In this document: piece by piece, positions 1 through 10,331 of the stretch
How the letters are laid out: each line of letters begins with the position of its first letter
Position numbering within the stretch: position 1 is the first letter of the stretch
Program-made: the position numbers and the translations under genes
Notes under the pieces: model-generated
Databases searched by the model: none
Told to the model about the DNA's origin: nothing
What the model saw: the letters and a program-made list of their open reading frames with translations, nothing else
Source of the DNA: an uncultured Lachnospiraceae bacterium
GTDB taxonomy: Bacteria > Bacillota > Clostridia > Lachnospirales > Lachnospiraceae
NCBI GenBank assembly: GCA_902778165.1
Contig: CACYWQ010000001.1
Span: 1 to 64,000, forward strand
DNA: 64,000 nucleotides
Reading direction: 5' to 3'

Positions 1-1272
1 TTTATAAGCGATGCCTATCCCGACCTTCAAAGTATCACAGACATACCTTTTAATGACATGGAAAAGGAGCTGAAAAAATACCTGATAAAGCAGGGAAAGC
101 CTCTTGTTACAAATAAGAAAAAACGTGACCGAAAACTTCAAGGCTCACAAAAGCACCCTGATCTTTTATACCTTCGCACAGTTTATGACTACTTTTTACC
201 GGATGATCCCAAAGACTTTGACAAGGATAGGGATATCTGGAGGTTAGAATCAATGCCCTTTATGCTTAGAGCTTCTCCAATCGGCTGTGACACAAGGGTT
301 AATTTTACAAAGATAAGGCAGGAAGATATTAAGCATGAAGTTAAGGAAGGGGCTCTCTACCACTTAAAGCGCCTAGCCGTAAGGACAGTGATACAGGAAG
401 TTGGAGCCATAAATAACCTATCGGAGTTTTTGGATAAAAACTACCCGGATATAAAATCGCTTAAGGACTTTAACAGAGCTCTTCTTGAAGAATACCTATC
501 CTACCTCTACCTCGAATGTAACAGAAGAAAAGACTATCGGGGCGAGCTTAGTAACCTAAAGAGTCTCCTTAACATCATTGGAAAGCTCCTTGGATACAAC
601 AATCTTCGGGGAATCTTTTTAAAGAGTGACTTTCAAAAGCATAAGCGCACCATCTATAAAAGTTACTCGGATGAAGACATAAAGGCTCTTCACCTTGGAT
701 ACAAGCTCCTTGATAAGCAGACTGCAAGGCTTCTTTTGATACATGAGCTTTTAGGGCTTCGCATCTCAGATACCATGACCATCAAGATAGATGATGTCTT
801 TCTTGGTGATGACCCCTATGTAAGGATCTCTCAGTCAAAGACCGGAAATGGCTACAACAAGAAATTAAATACTGAACTTGTCGCCCTATTTCGTGCCTGT
901 ATTGAAGAGACAATTGAAAAATATGGATCTTGCGAATACATCTTTGTATCAGATAAGGATCCTACAAGGCCTATGAAGTATACAACACTTCGCTATAGGC
1001 TCTCTTCCATGATAAATACGCTTGATCTTCGGGATTCAAACGGAAATCCCTTAACTCCAAGCACGCACCTATTCAGACACACCTACGGCAAAAAGCTCTG
1101 TGACCTCTTAAATGATGATGCCACCATAGCAGCACTTCTTGGGCATAAGTCCATAAGCAGCGTGGCATATTACAGACAGATGAGCCCGAAGGTACTTGCA
1201 GAAAATACGAAGCCGGTAATTGATGCACGTAACGAAAAGATAAAGAAATTCAAGAAAGGATGGATGGAATAA
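1..1272 (+). CDS. Tyrosine recombinase (phage-integrase family), 5' end outside window
   Basis: The reading frame is open from the first base of the window, so the gene begins upstream; the first internal ATG is at 58. Counting from that ATG, the catalytic set of the tyrosine recombinase family is visible: Arg235 in GLRISD, a Lys in the SQSKTG turn, His337-x-x-Arg340 in THLFRHTYG, His363 in LLGHKS and the nucleophile Tyr371 or Tyr372 in AYYRQ. A SAM-like core-binding domain lies before residue 200. The long N-terminus and the DUF6262/TnpC-like gene that follows with a TAATG overlap resemble the TnpB-TnpC arrangement of Tn554-type transposons. That subfamily assignment is inference; the recombinase call is firm. 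Confidence 0.9.
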   Translation, partial: FISDAYPDLQSITDIPFNDMEKELKKYLIKQGKPLVTNKKKRDRKLQGSQKHPDLLYLRTVYDYFLPDDPKDFDKDRDIWRLESMPFMLRASPIGCDTRVNFTKIRQEDIKHEVKEGALYHLKRLAVRTVIQEVGAINNLSEFLDKNYPDIKSLKDFNRALLEEYLSYLYLECNRRKDYRGELSNLKSLLNIIGKLLGYNNLRGIFLKSDFQKHKRTIYKSYSDEDIKALHLGYKLLDKQTARLLLIHELLGLRISDTMTIKIDDVFLGDDPYVRISQSKTGNGYNKKLNTELVALFRACIEETIEKYGSCEYIFVSDKDPTRPMKYTTLRYRLSSMINTLDLRDSNGNPLTPSTHLFRHTYGKKLCDLLNDDATIAALLGHKSISSVAYYRQMSPKVLAENTKPVIDARNEKIKKFKKGWME

Positions 1273-1664
1273 TGAACAACTACGACAACATGCTTCTTTC
1301 CAACAGGAAAGTCAGCGAAGAAAAAAAGATCCTTGCGATAGATACAATCCGTCGCATGGTAAAAGCAAACGAACATATCTCTATCGTGGAACTAACTAAA
1401 TTAACAGGACTCTCCCGCTCATTCTTTTATAAAAACGAGCAGGTAAACGCAGAACTTATGAAAGCTTTAAAGTCCCAGGAGGGAAAGGTCCTTACTTCCA
1501 GAAGGGATAAAACCTTAAATGAAGCCCTTAAAGAAACCGTAAGACTCCAAAAAGAAGAGATTGACCGCCTGCGCATGGAAAAAAGCCAGCTTGCCTTTGC
1601 TCTTAAAAGGCTTCAGGACGAGAAACAAAACGATGTTGATTTTGCACTTATTGAAAAACTTTAA
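1272..1664 (+). CDS. DUF6262 / TnpC-like recombinase accessory protein
   Basis: A 130-residue protein. The start at 1272 overlaps the recombinase stop as TAATG, implying translational coupling; an in-frame ATG at 1260 is less likely. Residues 20-60 hold a helix-turn-helix-like segment (SIVELTKLTGLSRSFFYKN), followed by a charged, probably coiled-coil tail (KEEIDRLRMEKSQL). This layout is typical of DUF6262 proteins that accompany Tn554-type tyrosine recombinases, where TnpC affects transposition. Family recognition comes from motif and context only. Confidence 0.7.
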   Translation: MNNYDNMLLSNRKVSEEKKILAIDTIRRMVKANEHISIVELTKLTGLSRSFFYKNEQVNAELMKALKSQEGKVLTSRRDKTLNEALKETVRLQKEEIDRLRMEKSQLAFALKRLQDEKQNDVDFALIEKL

Positions 1665-1685
1665 TTTACAAGGAGGATTTAGACT

Positions 1686-2545
1686 ATGGCAGCATATGTA
1701 ATCGGAGTAGATGTAGGATACGGAAATACCAAGACATCACACAACTGTTTTTCTTCAGGAGTAAAGAAGCTCCCCGGAAAACCACCCCTTGCTACAAGGG
1801 TAATCGAAACAACAGAGGGCTTTTATGCTATCGGGAACGGAAAAGTATCCGTCCAGAAATCAAAGACAGAGGATGAAAACATGAGAGTCCTTACAATGGC
1901 AGCTATCGCTGAGGAACTTAAAAAGACCGGCACCACTGTTGCAGATGTACATCTTGGTGTAGGCGTTCCCCTTACCCGTATGGGTGCAGAGAAAAAAGAC
2001 TTTGTGGAATACTACACCAAAAACCGCCGCCTTATCTTCAAATATGAGGATGTGCAGTACTCGGTGACACTTCTTTCCGTTGATGTATTAAATCAGCCCT
2101 TGTCATTGATATCGGCTCTTGGACAGTGGATATTCTGCCTTTGACAGAATTTATCCCTGATCAGACAAGATGTAAGTCCCTTCCACTTGGAACTATCACC
2201 TGCATGAATGACATCAACGAAGCACTTCGCCAGAACTTCGGGCAGGAAGCTGATGAAACCACCATCAAGGAAGTCATGATCTACGGGACAAGCGATATCC
2301 CTAAAGACTACCTTGATATCATAAAGACAGGTCTTACATCCTATGCTACAAACCTCATGGATCAAATCAGAGCCTTAAACTTTAACTCTGACCTTACCCA
2401 GTTTATCTTTATCGGAGGCGGCGCAACCATCATGAAGCACTTCCTCTCCGAGGCAGATAAGAAAAATGCCCTCATCCTTGATGATGTATCTATCAATGCC
2501 AAAGGATATGAGGAACTTATCCGTCATAAGATGGGAGGCAGGTAA
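1686..2545 (+). pseudogene. parM-like: ParM-like plasmid-segregation actin, broken by internal deletion and frameshift
   Basis: The frame starting at ATG 1686 (RBS AGGAGG at 1671-1676) gives an actin-fold N-terminus with phosphate-1 motif IGVDVGYGNTK and runs to a stop at 2144. The rest of the protein continues in another frame from about 2100: VIDIGSWTVDI (phosphate-2 motif), then a C-terminal FIFIGGG adenosine motif, ending at 2545. At the switch the residues SVDV are followed almost at once by LVIDIGS. In ParM relatives roughly 15-20 residues (a PQG-containing loop) lie between these elements. A deletion of some tens of bases with a net frame change therefore fits better than a single-base error. 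The gene probably gives no functional filament. Confidence 0.8.
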
Positions 2546-2853
2546 TGAACGTCAAAAGGAAGACCGTTCGTTTTCAGGACAATCTTTCAGATCTTGCTGT
2601 ATACGATGCCATTACAGACTATAAGAAATACGGCTACCGCTCCGAAAGCCACATGGTAATTGAAGCGGTACGCCGACTTATAAATGAAGACCCTGCATCC
2701 ACTGATGCTGAGAAGTTGGCAGACCTTATAGCAGAAAGGCTTTCCGGAAAGCTTACGATATCTTCCCAAAGCGCAGATACCTCTCCAAAAGAGGATACAA
2801 AAACAGAAGAGGCCGCCTTTGATGCGGCTCTCTCATTCCTTGATAGTTTCTAA
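2545..2853 (+). CDS. Small ribbon-helix-helix-like protein, probable ParR/CopG-type adaptor
   Basis: A 102-residue protein. Its ATG overlaps the stop of the ParM-like frame (TAATG). The N-terminus (KRKTVRFQD, a beta strand) followed by two helices (residues 18-48, including YGYRSESHMVIEAVRRLI) fits a ribbon-helix-helix DNA-binding domain. The acidic tail ends in FDAALSFLDSF, the sort of C-terminal peptide that ParR proteins use to touch ParM filaments. Position after a ParM-like gene supports a centromere-binding role, although its partner is broken. The family is inferred from shape and context. Confidence 0.55.
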   Translation: MNVKRKTVRFQDNLSDLAVYDAITDYKKYGYRSESHMVIEAVRRLINEDPASTDAEKLADLIAERLSGKLTISSQSADTSPKEDTKTEEAAFDAALSFLDSF

Positions 2854-2857
2854 TACT

Positions 2858-2890
2858 AGAGCCGGTAAATCCCACCGGCTCTATATTTTT
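2858..2890 (+). terminator. Intrinsic terminator after parM/parR-like genes
   Basis: Perfect stem AGAGCCGGT / ACCGGCTCT with a short loop, followed by TATATTTTT, 4 bases after the ParR-like stop codon. Confidence 0.85.
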
Positions 2891-2896
2891 CCTTCG

Positions 2897-2980
2897 ATAT
2901 ATGCTTTTCGCATATATATCTATCTGTTATGATTAACATATGCTTTTTGCATATGCAAATCTGTTATATCTTTTTTGCAT
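2897..2980. repeat. Inverted and direct repeat cluster, candidate centromere or operator
   Basis: Two hairpin-forming repeats share the core ATGC-N5-GCAT: ATATATGC/GCATATAT at 2897-2917 and CATATGC/GCATATG at 2937-2955. Each is followed by ATCTGTTAT (2922-2930 and 2959-2967), giving a repeat unit of about 37-40 bp. A degenerate third core (TTTTTTGCATA) lies at 2971-2981. The array sits between the ParR-like gene and the next gene, where ParMR centromeres or iterons are found. Function is inferred. Confidence 0.5.
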
Positions 2981-3015
2981 ACACCTACTTATGATGGTCT
3001 CAAAGGAGATAGCCT

Positions 3016-4266
3016 ATGTACAAGACAGACAACACACTTATCGGAAGACACCTTTCCGATCTTATAAAAAGGAGCCCATACGGAAATGATCGTCAGTTTG
3101 GAATCGCCTATCTCAAAGAGCGTGATGGGTCAAATTATAATCTGGATGACATTCAAAAGATGCAAAACCGCATCTGTCAGATCAAGAAGGGAAATAAAGG
3201 CATCCAAATAGAGGATCTTCCTATCTTTTCAAAGCTTCTCGGCGTATCCTGCGAGGATATAATTAGTGGCGGTAAAGCTCTTGCCCCTTCCCTAAACAGA
3301 AAAACAAACTACTCCATTTCCTTCTCCAAAGACCCCAAAGAGTGGGAAGACTATATAAATCGTGAAGATAAACCTTTCCTTAACCCTGATGAATTTGGTA
3401 AGACAGTCATTGACTATGCTTTAGAAGCAGGCAATTTCAAACTTCTTAAGTACCTGATGGATCAAGGATATATCTGGTTTGTCGGAAAGGATAAGAAAGA
3501 TTACTATCTGGGATTCGGGGCAGGAACAAGCGTAAAGAGGCGTAATATCGGCTACACAGACATCCTTGATGTGATGCTCAAAGAGCAGGATGATCTTAGA
3601 TTCCGTATGATCTCACTTGCAATAGAGAATAAAGACTTCGATATGCTTACTGAACTAAAAGCAAGAGAGCTTCCTCTGCTATATACCATAAACCCTGTTC
3701 AGCACTGGACATTACGGGATACTACTCTCCCATCTTCCCCTAATGTGACAGGCATGATTGAAAGCATTGCATCAAGTGAGAATACTGCTCTTTCTTATTT
3801 CTTCGATGAATTTGAAACTGAGGCAGAAAAAGACGCCTTAAAAAGCACCTATGTTTTCCCTTATGCAGGACAGGTTCTGGATCTGCTCATAAGGAGCCGA
3901 CGCATTTCAGAAAGCAAAAGGTTTCTCGAAAAAGCAATCAGCCACAACAAAGAAGTACAAAATCACTTACTGGAACTTGTCGATAAGAGCAGAGAAAACT
4001 GCAAAGAGCTCTACAGGGATGCTAAATCAGATTACTACGATGCAGCGTATTTTGAACGCGAAGCATGGCGTGAATATTACTTTTACCCTGATACCGGCTT
4101 TATTGCCTACTACATGCCTTTCTATTCCAAGAATACAACAGGCTTTATCACAAATGTTATAAACGTAACCGCTTCATCAAATAATCCAGAAGTCCAGTTC
4201 CTTATCGATGAGCTTAAAGAAACCTATAACACCTTTATAAAACAATTTGAAAAGAAGGAGGCGTAA
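3016..4266 (+). CDS. HTH-domain protein of unknown function on the mobile element
   Basis: A 416-residue soluble protein with a good RBS (AAAGGAGA) at 3002-3009. Residues 1-85 look like an atypical XRE-type helix-turn-helix: an IGRHLSDLIKRS start, a charged insertion, then IEDLPIFSKLLGVSCEDIISGG. The remainder is helical and includes short ankyrin-like stretches (FKLLKYLMDQGYIWFVG near 140; DFDMLTELKARELPLLYTIN near 205). No membrane segment or catalytic motif is visible. The N-terminal domain could bind the upstream repeats and act as the element's regulator. No function can be assigned. Confidence 0.6.
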   Translation: MYKTDNTLIGRHLSDLIKRSPYGNDRQFGIAYLKERDGSNYNLDDIQKMQNRICQIKKGNKGIQIEDLPIFSKLLGVSCEDIISGGKALAPSLNRKTNYSISFSKDPKEWEDYINREDKPFLNPDEFGKTVIDYALEAGNFKLLKYLMDQGYIWFVGKDKKDYYLGFGAGTSVKRRNIGYTDILDVMLKEQDDLRFRMISLAIENKDFDMLTELKARELPLLYTINPVQHWTLRDTTLPSSPNVTGMIESIASSENTALSYFFDEFETEAEKDALKSTYVFPYAGQVLDLLIRSRRISESKRFLEKAISHNKEVQNHLLELVDKSRENCKELYRDAKSDYYDAAYFEREAWREYYFYPDTGFIAYYMPFYSKNTTGFITNVINVTASSNNPEVQFLIDELKETYNTFIKQFEKKEA

Positions 4267-4270
4267 ATCT

Positions 4271-4459
4271 ATGTATAATCCTATCTTTGACTATGATGAC
4301 GGAGATTATATCTATCAGACTTCTGACAATATGGGCATCGACTCAGATGGTGATCTCCATATGCGCATGGGCGATAATATGTCTATGGACATGGAAACTG
4401 GAGAACTGCACTTTAATTCTGGCTGGAAAAACAACGATTACAATGATGATGATTTCTAA
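4271..4459 (+). CDS. Small acidic protein, unknown
   Basis: A 62-residue protein rich in Asp, Met and Tyr (FDYDDGDYIYQ, NDYNDDDF at the C-terminus). The start at 4271 is chosen because AAGGAGG ends 8 bases upstream, at 4256-4262; the longer frame from 4247 would bury this site inside the coding region. It follows the HTH gene by 4 bases and is probably cotranscribed. The acidity would suit a DNA mimic or a partner of a basic protein, but nothing shows that directly. Confidence 0.55.
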   Translation: MYNPIFDYDDGDYIYQTSDNMGIDSDGDLHMRMGDNMSMDMETGELHFNSGWKNNDYNDDDF

Positions 4460-4496
4460 AAAAATATGCGCCAGGAGAACAAAGTCTCTTGGCGCA
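4458..4496 (-). terminator. Intrinsic terminator for minus-strand transcripts
   Basis: Stem TGCGCCA-GAGA / TCTC-TGGCGCA at 4467-4496. Read on the minus strand it is followed by TATTTTTTT (4466-4458). It ends transcripts from the two small minus-strand genes and abuts the stop of the convergent plus-strand acidic gene. Confidence 0.8.
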
Positions 4497-4588
4497 TCTA
4501 CCGTCTTAATAATATGATATTCTTTCAAAAATGTATGGTTCTAACAATTCTTTAAGGTTTTCTCCTGTATTGCTTTTTAAGAAATCTT

Positions 4589-4879
4589 TCATAAGATTAT
4601 GTAAGTAAGTTTCCTTATTCCCAAATAGTTTTCTGCATCGTCTTTTGATATTCTAAATGAATAATGGGAGTCATAAGCTACCTCTTCATCAAGACTATAA
4701 TAATCAAGAACTCCATCCACTTTAAAGAACACCTGCATGTACCAACTTTCATTAGAATCTATTGGTACACGATATCTCCATCGCTCAATTGCCCAATCAT
4801 ACCAAGTAGGCACTTCATCTGCTAAAAACTTCTTTTCTCTTTCAAACTGCTTTATATATTCGAGCGTGTATTCAATCAT
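4589..4879 (-). CDS. Hypothetical protein, 96 aa
   Basis: Unrecognised soluble protein, aromatic and acidic (VPTWYDWAIERWRYRVP; SLDEEVAYDSHYSF). A GGAG precedes the start by a usual distance. It is followed by a minus-strand terminator at 4458-4496 and preceded by another small minus-strand gene. Probable cargo of the mobile element; no function assigned. Confidence 0.5.
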   Translation of the reverse strand: MIEYTLEYIKQFEREKKFLADEVPTWYDWAIERWRYRVPIDSNESWYMQVFFKVDGVLDYYSLDEEVAYDSHYSFRISKDDAENYLGIRKLTYIIL

Positions 4880-4957
4880 AATACTTCTCCATAGAATCTG
4901 GGCCTGTTTACACCACCTGCCCTTATTATACCATTGAATCTTGGTGGAACCACCTAT

Positions 4958-5260
4958 TTAAGAATATTGCTGAACGAACTGTTCAAAGATTGGATTTTTG
5001 GTGTGAAGCTTGTAGTCATCATGACAAATAATCTCTAATACTGCATCCAAAACTGATGCCGTTGTTGTCTGCTCATGGTATTCATGCTCCTTCTTGTACT
5101 TATGCATCAATCTGACATATTTAAACTTATGGTCTATAAGAGGCATTATCACCCAATAATGACCAGTGTTCTTTGACTGTACCTCATACATCACGGGATT
5201 CTCCGTTATTATATTAAAGTACGGATTCCCTAGCATCTCCTTATCCTTAGCTGTAAACAT
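4958..5260 (-). CDS. Hypothetical protein, 100 aa
   Basis: Unrecognised soluble protein beginning FTAKDKEMLGNPYFNI, with the core HYWVIMPLIDHKFKYVRLMHKYK and a helical C-terminus. GAAAGGAAGGTAAGG upstream supplies a plausible RBS. It lies between the other small gene and the truncated pilin, all in the same direction, so read-through from the Tad operon could express it. The central strand-rich block could be a small alpha/beta fold. No family recognised. Confidence 0.5.
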   Translation of the reverse strand: MFTAKDKEMLGNPYFNIITENPVMYEVQSKNTGHYWVIMPLIDHKFKYVRLMHKYKKEHEYHEQTTTASVLDAVLEIICHDDYKLHTKNPIFEQFVQQYS

Positions 5261-5335
5261 CCATCCTTACCTTCCTTTCATAAAACCAGACCTAATATTA
5301 CAAACACTTATCTTTACTCCCTCATAATGAATCCT

Positions 5336-5461
5336 TTATTTTCCACATAAAACATACCTGTGTTTTGCGTTAGGCTTTTCAACGATAATAAGTATTATCT
5401 CTACTGTTCCCATTCCACTCTCTTCACATAGAAAACTTCTTAGATTTTTGGTTTTTTTCAT
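5336..5461 (-). pseudogene. Flp1-like type IV pilin, truncated after 27 codons
   Basis: Forty-one codons from ATG 5461 (RBS AAAGGAAAGG just upstream) starting 15 bases after the tadC stop. The N-terminus (LCEESGMGTVEIILIIV) is the charged leader plus hydrophobic helix start of Flp1-like prepilins in Firmicutes Tad loci, with the cleavage region at ESGMGTVE. After Val27 the expected hydrophobic helix is replaced by an unrelated hydrophilic tail, EKPNAKHRYVLCGK, and a stop. The break at about 5381 coincides with the boundary of the mobile-element region. The rest of the pilin and any later tad genes are not in the window. Confidence 0.8.
5384..5399. other. 16-bp palindrome at the pilin/mobile-element junction, candidate att core
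   Basis: GATAATA-AG-TATTATC is a 7-bp perfect inverted repeat around a 2-bp centre. It encodes EIILII of the pilin and sits immediately beside the point where pilin homology stops (about 5381). Tyrosine recombinases act on such inverted core sites. Its role as the integration site is inference; the other junction is outside the window. Confidence 0.35.
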
Positions 5462-5476
5462 AAGCACCTTTCCTTT

Positions 5477-6856
5477 CTATAATCCTCCGAATGACAAATA
5501 TGCGGGGATCATTATTATCAGCATAACTACACTTAACATTAACATCATGGGAAATATCATCTTGGTTTGAGCTTCTTCTCCCATTCTTCTTGCTACAGCC
5601 TTTCTTTCTTCAAATGCCATTCTTACCTCATTATCCATTGCTTCAAGAATTCCTTCCGTTCCTTTCCGCAAATTCTGAATTAACAAAGAGGTCAGTTTTT
5701 TATAACAGACTATTCCGCATCTGTTTCCGAAAAACTCGTAACATCCGGCTTCGTCTACCCCGTCTCTGAGTTTTCTGATACATAACAGTAACTCTTCATA
5801 TACATATTTGTATTCCCCTCCTTTCTGTCTATTTCTTTTGTAGTCCTCAGCTATCTTTTCCATTGCCTTTCTTATGGTAGAGCCTGAACTGAGAAGTATC
5901 TGCAATTTACTTACAAATTCGGCATATTCTATAATCATTTGCCTATTTCTTTCTTCATATTTGCTTGTAAGATCTTTGTCTGTTCCAAACCATATTCCGA
6001 TTATTAGGCAAACACCAAGAATTATTACAATTGGGACAACCGGCTGCTTTGTTTCCTTCCAACTTATTGGTTTTCCATTAATAAAATCCGGTAGTTTATA
6101 CTGCGATTTCGTTTTTGATTTTTCATCTTCTGACAGTAGTGCATCTTTAAGCTCACTTATTCTTTTTTCATCTTCACTTAAAGTAACCGGATATATTATT
6201 GCTTTAATATCATATGTTTTCTCCCTTTTCCTGTAAGACATTATTACCTTAATATCTATAGGCACTCCCTCTTCATTTATATCTTCGTTATTGATATGAC
6301 CATTTGAATCAACAATTAAATAATCCGAACTTTCCCATCTCAGCGAAAACGGATAATTATCTACCTTAGCGGGAAATACCATATCTTTTTCTATATGATT
6401 AAAACCCTCATTCTCTCCCGGCACTATCTCTGTCAGATGGTTGTATAATTCATCCATCATCGAATCGCATTCCGCATCTGACAGTAATCGTTCTTCAACC
6501 TTCACTTCTATCTCACCGTACCTATAATCATCCGTACTGGCGCTTAAATTAACGGAATATTTTCCATTACCGACATCATTTCTTGGTAGTGAATTCTCTT
6601 TTGTGACTGTATTTGATGTTAACCTGCTTATGCTGACTGCAATTACAATAGCTATAATAAAAATAGTTGCCAGAATGATTTTCGATATTTTATCTTTATA
6701 GTATTCTTTAACCAGTTGTTTTACCGGCTTACCCGGATACAATGACATTAATTTCTTTCCATTGATTTCGGGAAACAGATTCATTCCGCTTTTGCTTTTA
6801 TATGAGAAATATTTATTTAAAATCATTTCTGCAAAACAGCTAATTAGTTCTTTCAT
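5477..6856 (-). CDS. tadC: TadC-like pilus platform protein with large extracellular insert
   Basis: Inner-membrane platform protein (T2SS F domain) of a Tad pilus machine, 459 aa. Residues 1-60 are cytoplasmic. A TM helix lies at about 60-78 (IILATIFIIAIVIAVSI) and a second at about 275-292 (VVPIVIILGVCLIIGIWFG). The F domain follows (FVSKLQILLSSGSTIRKAMEKIAEDY) and the protein ends in a TM helix (FPMMLMLSVVMLIIMIPAYL). The region from about 85 to 270, between the first two TM helices, is unusual: it is hydrophilic and probably outside the membrane, making the protein much longer than the usual 300 or so residues. It follows tadB by 9 bases. Confidence 0.8.
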   Translation of the reverse strand: MKELISCFAEMILNKYFSYKSKSGMNLFPEINGKKLMSLYPGKPVKQLVKEYYKDKISKIILATIFIIAIVIAVSISRLTSNTVTKENSLPRNDVGNGKYSVNLSASTDDYRYGEIEVKVEERLLSDAECDSMMDELYNHLTEIVPGENEGFNHIEKDMVFPAKVDNYPFSLRWESSDYLIVDSNGHINNEDINEEGVPIDIKVIMSYRKREKTYDIKAIIYPVTLSEDEKRISELKDALLSEDEKSKTKSQYKLPDFINGKPISWKETKQPVVPIVIILGVCLIIGIWFGTDKDLTSKYEERNRQMIIEYAEFVSKLQILLSSGSTIRKAMEKIAEDYKRNRQKGGEYKYVYEELLLCIRKLRDGVDEAGCYEFFGNRCGIVCYKKLTSLLIQNLRKGTEGILEAMDNEVRMAFEERKAVARRMGEEAQTKMIFPMMLMLSVVMLIIMIPAYLSFGGL

Positions 6857-6865
6857 GTATAATCC

Positions 6866-7621
6866 CTAAATTCTTATGTCGATTATCTTATCTGAAAAAT
6901 AAATTGAAAGAATGTATATTGACATAGTTACCGTCATTACCAGGTTCCCGAAAATATTGTGGTACAAAACCGCAAAGAAGCCTTTGTTGGTTAACTCAAC
7001 ATAGAAAATAATCAAAAACGGTATTACATTCATTATTCTCTGTTCAAATTTCCTGGCACTTACCATGGTATCTATTTCCTGCATCACTTCGGTTTTCTCC
7101 TCAATCACTCTCACATAGGATTCCATATTTGCAGACATATTACCTCCGGACTTTCTGCCTATGGCCAAAATACCGGCAAAACTCTCTATTTCTTCTATTC
7201 CGGATCTGAAAGCAAAGTCTTCGATTAAGCTTATAATGTTAAGATTATTCTCTATACCTCTTCTTATAATGCTTATTTCTTTTACAATTTCCGAATTTGA
7301 TCCGAACAGTTGTCTTAAATCTTTATCCGCTTCCAAAAAAGCATTTTCAACAGAGTATCCTGCTTGAATTGATCCGTTTACGGAATTCAGCAATTCTTTG
7401 AATTGTATAAGTAATGCGTGCTTCTTTTTTTCTTTCAATCCCTTTCCTTTATAAATCAGATAGAAATAGATTAAGGGAATCATCAGAATTGTTATAACTA
7501 TGGATCGATAGAAAAAGTACCCGAACAAAATGATAATAACTACACCTTCAACAACTCCTTGAATCAACTCACTTTTATTCATCTCTGATATGAATTCCGG
7601 CACTTTTAAGTTTTTCCTCAT
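6866..7621 (-). CDS. tadB: TadB-like pilus platform protein
   Basis: 251-residue T2SS F-domain membrane protein. TM segments are at about 25-60, and two close together near the C-terminus (NVIPFLIIFYVELTNKGFF; FGNLVMTVTMSIYILSIYF). The F-domain signature is LLNSVNGSIQAGYSVENAFLEADKDL. The start at 7621 has a strong GGGAGG RBS and overlaps the 3' end of tadA by 47 bases; an ATG at 7582 would cut the overlap to 8 bases but lacks a clear RBS. With TadC it should form the inner-membrane platform driven by TadA. Confidence 0.82.
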   Translation of the reverse strand: MRKNLKVPEFISEMNKSELIQGVVEGVVIIILFGYFFYRSIVITILMIPLIYFYLIYKGKGLKEKKKHALLIQFKELLNSVNGSIQAGYSVENAFLEADKDLRQLFGSNSEIVKEISIIRRGIENNLNIISLIEDFAFRSGIEEIESFAGILAIGRKSGGNMSANMESYVRVIEEKTEVMQEIDTMVSARKFEQRIMNVIPFLIIFYVELTNKGFFAVLYHNIFGNLVMTVTMSIYILSIYFSDKIIDIRI

Positions 7622-8807
7622 TCTTAAGCCTCCCTATTCTTACCAGATCTCCCTTTACCTTAGATTTGGTTGTTTCACCGTTCTCTCTATACTCATAAAT
7701 CGGATTGATATCAATCCCTTCGTCTGTACCGTTGTTTAATTCAACAATTTCCAATACCTTCCTGGTTTTATCCCTCATTCTTCCCAAATGAACTATAATA
7801 TCCACTCCGCTGCTTATCTGTCTCCTTATTGCATGTATTGGAAGTTCAACCGCCATAAGTATCATTGTCTCCAGACGTGATATAGTATCTGCTGCACTGT
7901 TGGCATGAACTGTTGACATACTTCCGTCATGTCCGCAATTCATTGCGGAACATACCATGTCCATCGCTTCTCCGCCCCTGACTTCTCCTACTATTATTCG
8001 GTTTGGTCTCATTCTTAAACTAGTTTTAATCAAATCTCGTATCGTTATCGGATTACATCCCTCAATGTTGCTGTTTTTTGTTTCCATGCGTACAAGGTTC
8101 TCTATTCCTTGTATTTGTAATTCCGCACTATCTTCGATTGTAATGATTCTTTCATCAGATGGAATAAAAGATGATAAAGCATTAAGAAACGTTGTTTTAC
8201 CTGACCCGGTTCCTCCGCTTACTATGATGTTGTACCCTGAAATCACAAGTTTTCTCAGAAAATCTGCCGCTTCATCATTGATGCTTCCCATTCCTATTAA
8301 ATCTTTCATAAGAAAAGGCTTTGATGGGAATCTTCTTATCGTAAGAATAGGTCCGTTAATTGCAACCGGGTTAAGAACAACATTTACTCTAGAACCATCC
8401 ATAAGTCTTGCATCAACTATAGGTATTGAATCATTTACTACTCTGTTGCACCTGGCAACGATTTGTCCTATCACATTTCTTAGGCTTTCCTCAGAATCAA
8501 AAGTTTGAGGTATTCTATAAAGATGTCCCTTTTTCTCAATAAAAATGGTATTCGGACCATTAACCATTATTTCCGTTATGCCGGGGTCCTCCAATAAATC
8601 CTGCAAAACATCAAGTTTTCTCATGGAATGATAGATTTGTCTGCCTATTTCCAAGCGTTCCTTAATCGGAATATGATTTAAAGCATTAATCTCTTTAATC
8701 TCATCCCCTATCATTTCTTTTAATTCTTCGTCTGTAACATCTTCTTTAAACTCCAGCTTTTCTATTAATTTGTTTTTTATTTGTAATGTCAGTTCTTCTT
8801 CCTGCAT
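7575..8807 (-). CDS. tadA: TadA/CpaF-type pilus assembly ATPase
   Basis: 410-residue secretion ATPase of the VirB11/CpaF family powering Flp pilus assembly. An N-terminal helical domain (to about 90) is followed by ILEDPGITEIMVNGPNTIFIE. Walker A is GGTGSGKTTFLN at about 197-208; the Asp box TIEDSAELQI, Walker B-like RIIVGEVRGGEAMD and the His box TVHAN all follow in order. The length matches the family. The start is 1 base after the tadZ-like stop. Confidence 0.92.
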   Translation of the reverse strand: MQEEELTLQIKNKLIEKLEFKEDVTDEELKEMIGDEIKEINALNHIPIKERLEIGRQIYHSMRKLDVLQDLLEDPGITEIMVNGPNTIFIEKKGHLYRIPQTFDSEESLRNVIGQIVARCNRVVNDSIPIVDARLMDGSRVNVVLNPVAINGPILTIRRFPSKPFLMKDLIGMGSINDEAADFLRKLVISGYNIIVSGGTGSGKTTFLNALSSFIPSDERIITIEDSAELQIQGIENLVRMETKNSNIEGCNPITIRDLIKTSLRMRPNRIIVGEVRGGEAMDMVCSAMNCGHDGSMSTVHANSAADTISRLETMILMAVELPIHAIRRQISSGVDIIVHLGRMRDKTRKVLEIVELNNGTDEGIDINPIYEYRENGETTKSKVKGDLVRIGRLKNEEKLKSAGIHIRDE

Positions 8808-9788
8808 TTATTTGACTATCTCTCCAGCAAGTTCTTTTGCGTATTCTCCTATTTCACTCATGAAATTGAGATACGTCATTTCGGATTTCATATAGGGGAT
8901 TCTGATATATTTAACGTTATCTGTAATATCATCCAAACCCTCCAGTTCGTTTTTAAATATTTCCAATCTGTCTTTATATACGTCGTCTTCCGTTGCTGTG
9001 ACAATCAACATATGACAAAGAATAATTAATTCCGTCAGACCCTGAATTGCCTTAGACATATCCAGGATTACATACTCATAATCCGTATTGTCTTCTATAT
9101 GTCTTAGAAAATTCCTCCATTCCGGATATGTGATACTTATCAGATCATTGTGTCTGGCCATATTCGGCATTACATCCAATCCATTTATTTCACCGGACGA
9201 TCCTCCGATAAGTGCTGCAATATCTTTGGAATCATTATTTACTGAATAAAGTAAATCGGATAAATCGCCTGAACATGGCGTATTTAACATATCTGTCGAA
9301 ATTCCGCCGTAACAATCCATATTCACGTAAAGGGTTCGATATTTTTTTGCCAAATTCTGGCCAAGTGACAATCCAAGGCTTGTCTGTCCGCATCTTCCTA
9401 TCGGACTGAACATTCCTATCAGTTTCATTTGATTTTTTCTGCTTATCAGATTTTTAAGATTGTCTATGGTTGCGGCATATAACATTATTTCCTTTATAAT
9501 TCTTTCTATACTTTGATATTTATATATAGCTCTTTCATTTCTGCTTTCTTTAAGAGTGTCTCCCGATAATAAAAGGGTATTAACATACAGGAATTTATCT
9601 GAAATGTTTTTCGCCATTTCCTCATCTATTAACAAAATATCGATATTATAATCCTTGCTTTCTTCCAGCAAGGTGACTTCTTCACATACTCTTGCTTCAA
9701 ACGGAAATCCTTCTCTGTTATTAATATATCCCGCAGCTTTGTATGCATATTCTCTGTCGGAATCACAAATTATCATCGTATGTTTCAT
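8808..9788 (-). CDS. tadZ: TadZ/CpaE-like pilus localisation ATPase with deviant P-loop
   Basis: 326 residues. The N-terminal third resembles a degenerate receiver domain (MIICDSDREYAYKAAGYIN; DILLIDEEMA). The rest is a ParA/MinD-type ATPase fold, with MDCYGG for the second nucleotide motif and EYVILDMSKAI for Walker B. The P-loop reads FSPIGRCGQTSLG: the usual Lys before Thr is Gln. TadZ proteins are known to mark the site of Tad pilus assembly and to have receiver-like N-termini. Position directly before tadA fits. Confidence 0.8.
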   Translation of the reverse strand: MKHTMIICDSDREYAYKAAGYINNREGFPFEARVCEEVTLLEESKDYNIDILLIDEEMAKNISDKFLYVNTLLLSGDTLKESRNERAIYKYQSIERIIKEIMLYAATIDNLKNLISRKNQMKLIGMFSPIGRCGQTSLGLSLGQNLAKKYRTLYVNMDCYGGISTDMLNTPCSGDLSDLLYSVNNDSKDIAALIGGSSGEINGLDVMPNMARHNDLISITYPEWRNFLRHIEDNTDYEYVILDMSKAIQGLTELIILCHMLIVTATEDDVYKDRLEIFKNELEGLDDITDNVKYIRIPYMKSEMTYLNFMSEIGEYAKELAGEIVK

Positions 9789-9803: not shown

Positions 9804-10331
9804 CTAATAGAAATTTACATGTCCGAAATTATCAATCACAATACCGATCAGTATTCCAATGGCCATTGGAACAGCCATTGGAACACGATTCGGACTATAT
9901 GGCGGTACCTCAATATGAATTTGGCCTCGACTCAAATACACCAATTTCAGAAAATTACAGAATTTCTTGATTTGCTTTCTTTTTGAAGGGAGAAGAATTA
10001 ATCTTCCTAGAGTCGGTACCGCCGCAACACAGAATACCAAAAGATAGAAAAGCAGAATTTTCTCTCTGTTTATATATAGGGGAATAACTGAGTACAACTT
10101 GACATCTCCTGCGCCTAAAGAATCCGAAAGATAGAACGGAATAAAGAGAATTAATGCCAAAAAACAACAAATTAAACGACTGATAATCTCTGTCATACCA
10201 CCGTATAACAGTACTCTGCACATTCCCCACGCATATATAACAATTACAATTGCATTGGGAATCGTTCTTTTTCGGATATCGAAAAATGCCGCAGCTATAC
10301 ACAGAATTAGTAATCCTATGATAACTATCAC
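9804..10331 (-). CDS. tadV: Prepilin peptidase (A24, TadV/CpaA type)
   Basis: 175-residue polytopic aspartyl protease that cleaves Flp prepilin leaders. The two catalytic motifs are present: FDIRKRTIPN near residue 17 and GAGDVK near 73. Several hydrophobic helices surround them. It is first in the Tad operon, 15 bases before tadZ. The start is uncertain: GTG at 10331 is the first usable codon after the upstream stop, yet it lies inside AAGAGGTGAT, a near-perfect Shine-Dalgarno sequence that would suit initiation at ATC 10322 or ATA 10319. Confidence 0.85.
   Translation of the reverse strand: MIVIIGLLILCIAAAFFDIRKRTIPNAIVIVIYAWGMCRVLLYGGMTEIISRLICCFLALILFIPFYLSDSLGAGDVKLYSVIPLYINREKILLFYLLVFCVAAVPTLGRLILLPSKRKQIKKFCNFLKLVYLSRGQIHIEVPPYSPNRVPMAVPMAIGILIGIVIDNFGHVNFY

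Follow-up and report, generated by a model that had tools for sequence, protein, structure and literature searches.

Tn554 inserts in radC, and ICEs with genic attachment sites usually leave the target gene functional. Among the described systems closest to the locus analysed here, GInts carry three tyrosine recombinases and a small TnpC-like protein, GinD, in one operon that marks the 5' end of the element, with the cargo lying after ginD (Bardaji et al. 2017, PMC5385486). As that paper presents them, GinC is without the first catalytic arginine, insertion is site-specific, with imperfect direct repeats of 10-11 nt and a 6-nt exchange, and the targets are ssb or a Pseudomonas ABC-transporter gene. 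GInts form circles, and empty sites are reported there for some strains, with none in three of seven (PMC5385486). The strand-biased circularizing elements (SEs) belong to Gammaproteobacteria and are described in PMC10214605 as having no mobilization system; in the same account, SE and Tn554 movement carries a 6-bp footprint, and the donor copy can stay in place. The open-access literature that we searched held no report of a Flp1 pilin as an integration site. We find it very probable that the pilin gene is a chromosomal attachment site for Lachnospiraceae integrative elements, inserted by their recombination module, and that the pilus is off meanwhile.

The window, 64,000 nucleotides long, lies at the start of a contig of 397 kb in the assembly (G000, 48 contigs) of an uncultured Lachnospiraceae bacterium. 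Positions 1..5379 are mobile element, which runs off the contig start and is truncated there at position 1; the chromosome begins at 5381. An earlier note on this DNA had recognised a Flp1-like prepilin start with an unrelated tail in one minus-strand frame, and this reading was borne out. The frame at 5336-5467 (43 codons from GTG, 41 from the ATG at 5461) consists, from that ATG, of the 5' half of a Flp1-type prepilin gene (5381..5461, minus strand; 27 codons, ending in the conserved IILIIV) and an element-derived tail (5336..5380, minus strand; 14 codons and a stop) with the sequence EKPNAKHRYVLCGK. Codons 1-27 match only positions 2-19 of the 49 in Pfam Flp1_like (PF16982), scoring 28.6 bits, below the cut-off of 33.5, with an E-value of 1e-6. 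The last pilin codon is 5381-5383, and the break is sharp to the base.

The tail is element DNA and is found at the identical junction in the sister elements L181, L163 and L166. Comparison with sisters also confirmed the earlier placing of the start of mobile-element sequence at about 5381, where identity drops. Window positions 1-5380 show zero substitutions against L181 (uncultured Lachnospiraceae RUG13935), with 5380 of 5427 aligned columns matching and the differences consisting of gaps at two places. Going right, the bin that straddles the junction has 92% identity to L181, its neighbour 64% and those beyond it 35-70% (last partial bin left out). Across three sisters it falls from about 100% to 30-76% per 50-base bin right of the break, gapped or partial bins being lower. 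L163 has the same edge as L181, and L166 nearly so (96% in the compared piece). On these alignments, one element evidently occupies one codon in different chromosomes and, since the element is without substitutions while the tad flanks diverge, we infer its recent horizontal transfer.

The tad genes that the note had described as kept all lie in open frames on the minus strand: TadC (a T2SSF protein, 5477..6856; PF00482), TadB (6866..7621; 71% identity to G005), TadA (a CpaF-type ATPase, 7575..8807; PF00437, E 6.3e-60), TadZ (8808..9788) and the prepilin peptidase (9804..10331; PF01478, E 1.1e-12). Pfam confirms TadA, TadC and the peptidase; TadB and TadZ have no Pfam match and are named by position, TadZ within an order conserved in relatives. 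Among the relatives listed, with names given by eye, the pilin gene has tadC before it and, after it, a PilV-like gene, further secretion genes and an FHA-type protein, often also a flavodoxin-like protein. As the note had claimed, the remainder of the pilin and the later tad genes are missing from the window. Nor were they found in the 48 contigs of G000, a negative of low weight. The rest of the element was likewise not found in this assembly, so the loss may be permanent. In the same 48 contigs the TadE family gave no match (empty answers of such searches prove little), and neither the PilV-like and flavodoxin proteins of a relative's downstream region nor 12 kb of sister element continuing past the end of the window's piece had a match, both being negatives of low weight; with the DNA of the relative's downstream tad region, the pilin start was the only match in G000. 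The possibility of another intact pilin nearby had also been raised. A profile search restricted to the Flp1 family gave one match only in the whole G000 assembly and so no sign of a second Flp1 pilin there.

Because the contig ends, only the final two genes of the recombination module are visible here. They are a third tyrosine recombinase, RecC (1..1272, plus strand; C-terminal 423 aa; PF00589, E 5.8e-18), with the catalytic R, HxxR and Y all present, and a DUF6262 protein in the TnpC/GinD position (1260..1664, plus strand; PF19776, E 5.8e-29). An actin-like, ParM-type protein follows (1686..2545, plus strand; PF17989, E 3.5e-12); a short internal deletion relative to the sisters (gap at 2089) leaves it in two frames here, against a single 301-aa frame there. 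The adjoining small protein (2545..2853, plus strand) has no Pfam match and 96-100% identity in sisters L185 and L200; that it is a ribbon-helix-helix protein is a guess. A further element protein (3016..4266, plus strand; no Pfam match) is 98-100% identical in the same two sisters. Co-directional with tad is a small element protein at 4589..4879 (minus strand; 91-93% in sisters), which also holds a one-base gap against them; this gap and that of the ParM-like gene may be real or assembly errors. The element gene nearest to the cut pilin, at 4958..5260 (minus strand, the tad direction), encodes 100 aa with no Pfam match. Its homologues lie near the N half in G246, G485, G469, G463, G471, G488 and G023, and its product is a candidate for controlling integration or excision.

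In sisters, the module reads as recombinases of about 364, 629 and 495 aa, then a 134-aa DUF6262 protein, the ParM-like gene and small genes (L199/L200); the order of three tyrosine recombinases and DUF6262 was met in L185, L199/L200, L191 and L098. R and HxxR are kept in all proteins tested (four RecA, four RecB, five RecC), and R326 (numbered by the first sequence), HxxR and Y465 are invariant in all eight sequences of a RecC alignment, the tyrosine having been checked for RecC only. Compared by description rather than by gin sequence, the module shares several features with GInts: consecutive genes for three tyrosine recombinases and a small TnpC-like protein, highly specific insertion, core repeats that are imperfect, an exchange of 6 nt, and a large, variable cargo that includes restriction-modification. 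It differs in which of its genes lies at the element end, in several clades the last instead of the first: in G016, G023, G181, G195 and G456, DUF6262 is next to the C-half end, whereas the window and its sisters have ParM and other genes between DUF6262 and the N-half end. Moreover, RecC keeps the catalytic arginine that GinC is without, some sister elements bear conjugation genes, and the target is a Tad pilin. The longer GInt-type repeats of 10-11 nt were not evident at the element ends. Because the operon position and the arginine loss of GinC, both tested, do not hold here, we do not class these elements as GInts. By its gene content the module is GInt-like and Tn554-related, not strictly a GInt, and would work like one.

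On the plasmid pWBG14, recombinase genes are followed by a DUF6262 gene, with ant(9)-Ia and erm(A) next to them, an arrangement that we take to be Tn554. As there, recombinases of similar size are followed by DUF6262, a TnpA, TnpB, TnpC pattern judged by gene order and Pfam rather than by TnpA alignment. Unlike Tn554, the module has an extra recombinase, RecC (21.8% identical to the matching stretch of pWBG14), a far larger cargo and a different target, the Flp1 pilin and not radC. The 6-bp core is a further likeness (Tn554 core: PMC10214605). With SEs, as PMC10214605 describes them, these elements share two catalytic recombinases, a further recombinase-like protein, a small protein and a 6-bp footprint; they differ in lying outside the Gammaproteobacteria and in the conjugation genes of some sisters, SEs being described there as without a mobilization system.

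The likeness to ICEs with genic attachment sites lies in the relaxase, type IV secretion coupling protein and VirB4-like ATPase of sister elements, genes not visible in the window's 5.4 kb; the difference is that the target gene is here split near its start. A 66-kb sister in G471 (38 frames scanned) has a coupling protein and TraG/VirB4-like, NlpC/P60, ArdC and restriction-modification families, and a 74-kb relative in G463 has a 618-aa relaxase. G016 carries type I restriction genes. By this gene content, the elements, or at least a part of them, resemble ICEs. Both the G471 and G463 elements also encode two T2SSE-type ATPases, and in G471 two T2SSF-like proteins, one just above and one below the Pfam cut-off, lie near one of these. 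A Tad-like cluster is seen on the element itself (L182 8045-15323 in G471; L194 3568-10852 in G463); it comprises a T2SSE-type ATPase, T2SSF-like proteins and a number of small proteins with a single helix.

A Flp1 match is present in 382 of 397 family genomes. In a genus sample of 20, the match was full-length in 12 (one, G001, with five Ns at the site), halves only in two (G000 and G016) and absent in six. In this genus sample, no relative without the element was seen to have the 41-codon frame; the 12 genus genomes with a pilin hold the full-length gene and no half. Within the family, 35 of the 397 genomes, with weak best matches and hand-picked among the matches listed, were re-examined together with G016, and the cut counts are accordingly lower bounds: at least 19 genomes, all from different genera, have the cut at model position 17-19. 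At least 16 of the 397 genomes, from 16 genera (about 1 in 25 genomes), have element sequence at the cut, which turns an apparent lone pseudogene into a recurrent rule and affects the scoring of pilus presence from genomes. Counted apart from these are G098, G177 and G316, where the contig ends at the cut without element sequence. Both halves lie on one contig, 20-64 kb apart, in G023, G181, G195 and G246.

A profile scan of named genomes gave 51 RecC loci, with a half pilin in the fetched flank at 37 (local pilin model). Fifty of these loci, all save L174, entered the pilin-cut count, and the pilin is cut at the same codon in 46 of the 50 genomes (both halves in 35, one half in 11); as the profile was built solely from pilin-cut genomes including the window, this figure describes the present group and not the wider recombinase family. 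Among the 46, G447, G451 and G474 have a further, fuller Flp1-like match above the cut-off. The remaining genomes, G454, G462, G477 and G478, have uncut pilin matches only, and G478 pairs a close RecC relative (L170) with an intact pilin; these count against pilin attachment. Inserts with both halves on one contig number 14, the shortest 18 kb (Agathobacter ruminis, V9D3004) and the longest 89 kb (GAM79, a complete genome), one such pair sitting in a 2.9-Mb contig. Cultured strains among the carriers include Hespellia stercorisuis DSM 15480, Acetitomaculum ruminis DSM 5522, Pseudobutyrivibrio ruminis CF1b and Coprococcus comes MSK.16.63. RecC was present in 11 of 20 cut genomes versus none of the other 18 in the genus, of which 12 have a full pilin and six no match. 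It was not found in the assemblies of the other nine cut genomes, which also speaks against the attachment reading, as do the failure to find the window's other element end and pilin C half in G000 and the lack of a circular form in the junction patterns searched.

The putative 6-bp core lies, at the single end visible in the window, at 5380..5385 (TCGTTG on the minus strand), over parts of codons 26-28, or six bases over codons 18-20 in Pfam numbering. Both halves together with element sequence are available for 37 genomes, and in 19 of them the core is identical on the two sides; shuffling the sides between genomes gave 3.3 identical on average, and none of 20000 shuffles reached 19. The other 18 differ by one to four letters, most differences falling at wobble bases (in the subset of 35 without G447 and G466), and these mismatches weigh against pilin attachment. 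The cores stand in the same codon phase on both sides, in the register set by the pilin model, and would allow in-frame restoration of the pilin.

In a tree of 52 RecC sequences, the window falls in a clade of 16 (support 100/99). In 12 of these the N half lies next to a module that reads in its direction; outside the clade, the C half is seen in 25 rows. The tree joins long branches for the tadA pair and for L203/L212, which makes these two groupings weak. The variation of module position and reading direction between clades is a further point against the attachment reading. RecC matched 42 plasmid records, at 22-24% identity among the 15 matches listed, and four phage records, of which two are unannotated fecal contigs (33-35%) and two are Listeria phages (21%); no relative was found in viral_contigs. 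The two fecal contigs were considered as circular forms, and having no terminal overlap they are not shown to be circles. For a circular form, three junction patterns were absent from viral_contigs and one from the fetched loci, collections unlikely to hold circles.

In G316 (L125/L117), G098 (L127/L126) and G177 (L116), the assemblies break at or a few bases from the core without element sequence, and G001 (L040) has NNNNN in that place, again without element sequence. A mixed population would explain these breaks and Ns, or they may have other causes; a search for RecC in these four assemblies gave none. The two ends seen in G016 (L043 1-200; L066 9821-10350) belong to different clades, the N end to the one seen in G463 and the C end to the one seen in G023; a tandem pair of elements may occupy the site.

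Related recombinases may also use other targets. In G181 a second, related module is placed 1.1 kb away from a tadA tail. The front of that tadA is 18 kb distant, and the gene is cut at codon 287/288, with AGGCTT shared (L202 2309-8265, L219 571-1431). The tadA of G023 is also in two parts, 14 kb apart (L044 10188-10550, L218 13533-14423). No recombinase module of this kind was found in that gap, and the shared stretch differs from that of G181. Pilin and tadA are both cut in these two genomes. In L174, G478, G462 and G454, tadA tails were seen and fronts were not located. From a separate RecC clade of five, L154 (near 12100) and L169 (near 4160) were read by eye from translations, and their elements appear to end inside ABC-transporter ATPase genes, at Walker B / D-loop codons.

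At the level of sequence, these comparisons document a precise break, a recurrent site, matching cores, recombinase linkage and the same element in different chromosomes. We infer that the three-recombinase and DUF6262 module catalyses pilin integration. The three tyrosine recombinases and the TnpC-like DUF6262 protein would join the element ends to the 6-bp core, in hydrophobic codons just past the prepilin cleavage site, and insertion would leave the pilin as two halves, one per element end. With the element in place, the gene would give no complete pilin; pili would probably be absent and the Tad pilus off, with the motor genes kept. Excision rejoining the halves in frame is plausible and would be expected. 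The near-universal Flp1 pilin gives a broad host range, which is likely the reason for the site choice; tRNA genes serve other elements as broad-host-range attachment sites.

It is quite possible, if somewhat doubtful, that insertion is instead one-way, as in Tn554 and SEs: the donor copy stays, the pilin is permanently lost, and only selection on the cargo keeps the state. The cores speak on both sides of this question, as some of the 18 mismatched pairs may be footprints of previous hosts, whereas the 19 identical pairs speak against it. The 6-bp footprint of SE and Tn554 movement (PMC10214605) and the three of seven GInt strains reported without an empty site (PMC5385486) would fit one-way insertion, as would the few junction searches made, which found no circle. 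It is opposed by the four assemblies with breaks or Ns at or near the site, as a mixed population would explain, and by C halves still recognisable as pilin, although they were also found by that likeness. A fusion of the tad operon with an unrelated plasmid through assembly or binning is highly improbable: the window begins at a contig end and 12 kb of further sister element was not found in the bin, but similar pilin-cut junctions are seen in the complete genome of GAM79, in named-strain drafts and in MAGs, which contradicts an artefact at the level of the group.

We consider it unlikely that integration and excision are a selected switch, turning the pilus on and off so that pilus-negative cells escape pilus-binding phages or host recognition. 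The tad operon is indeed struck at two genes, the pilin gene and also tadA, the latter in G181 with a related module, and the shared codon phase of the cores would suit a switch. The other RecC clade, by contrast, appears to end in ABC-transporter genes (two of five members, by eye), so conserved codons, not pili, may be the target. A broader proposal, which we hold to be rather improbable, is that a recombinase family specialised on the Tad operon, with pilin and tadA modules, forms a family-wide heritable switch (in, pilus off; out, pilus restored), the Tad-like motor that some of these conjugative elements carry replacing the host pilus machine as a transfer machine.

On the preferred reading of the pilin gene as an attachment site, a protein-coding gene near-universal in the family would serve as the landing site for large, partly conjugative elements, and it appears to be common to related islands in dozens of related bacteria. 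At the C-half junctions of G181, G195, G246 and G471, an in-frame ATG immediately precedes the C half or coincides with its first codon, in some of them with a G-rich stretch upstream; with such an ATG, the leaderless C half might be translated.
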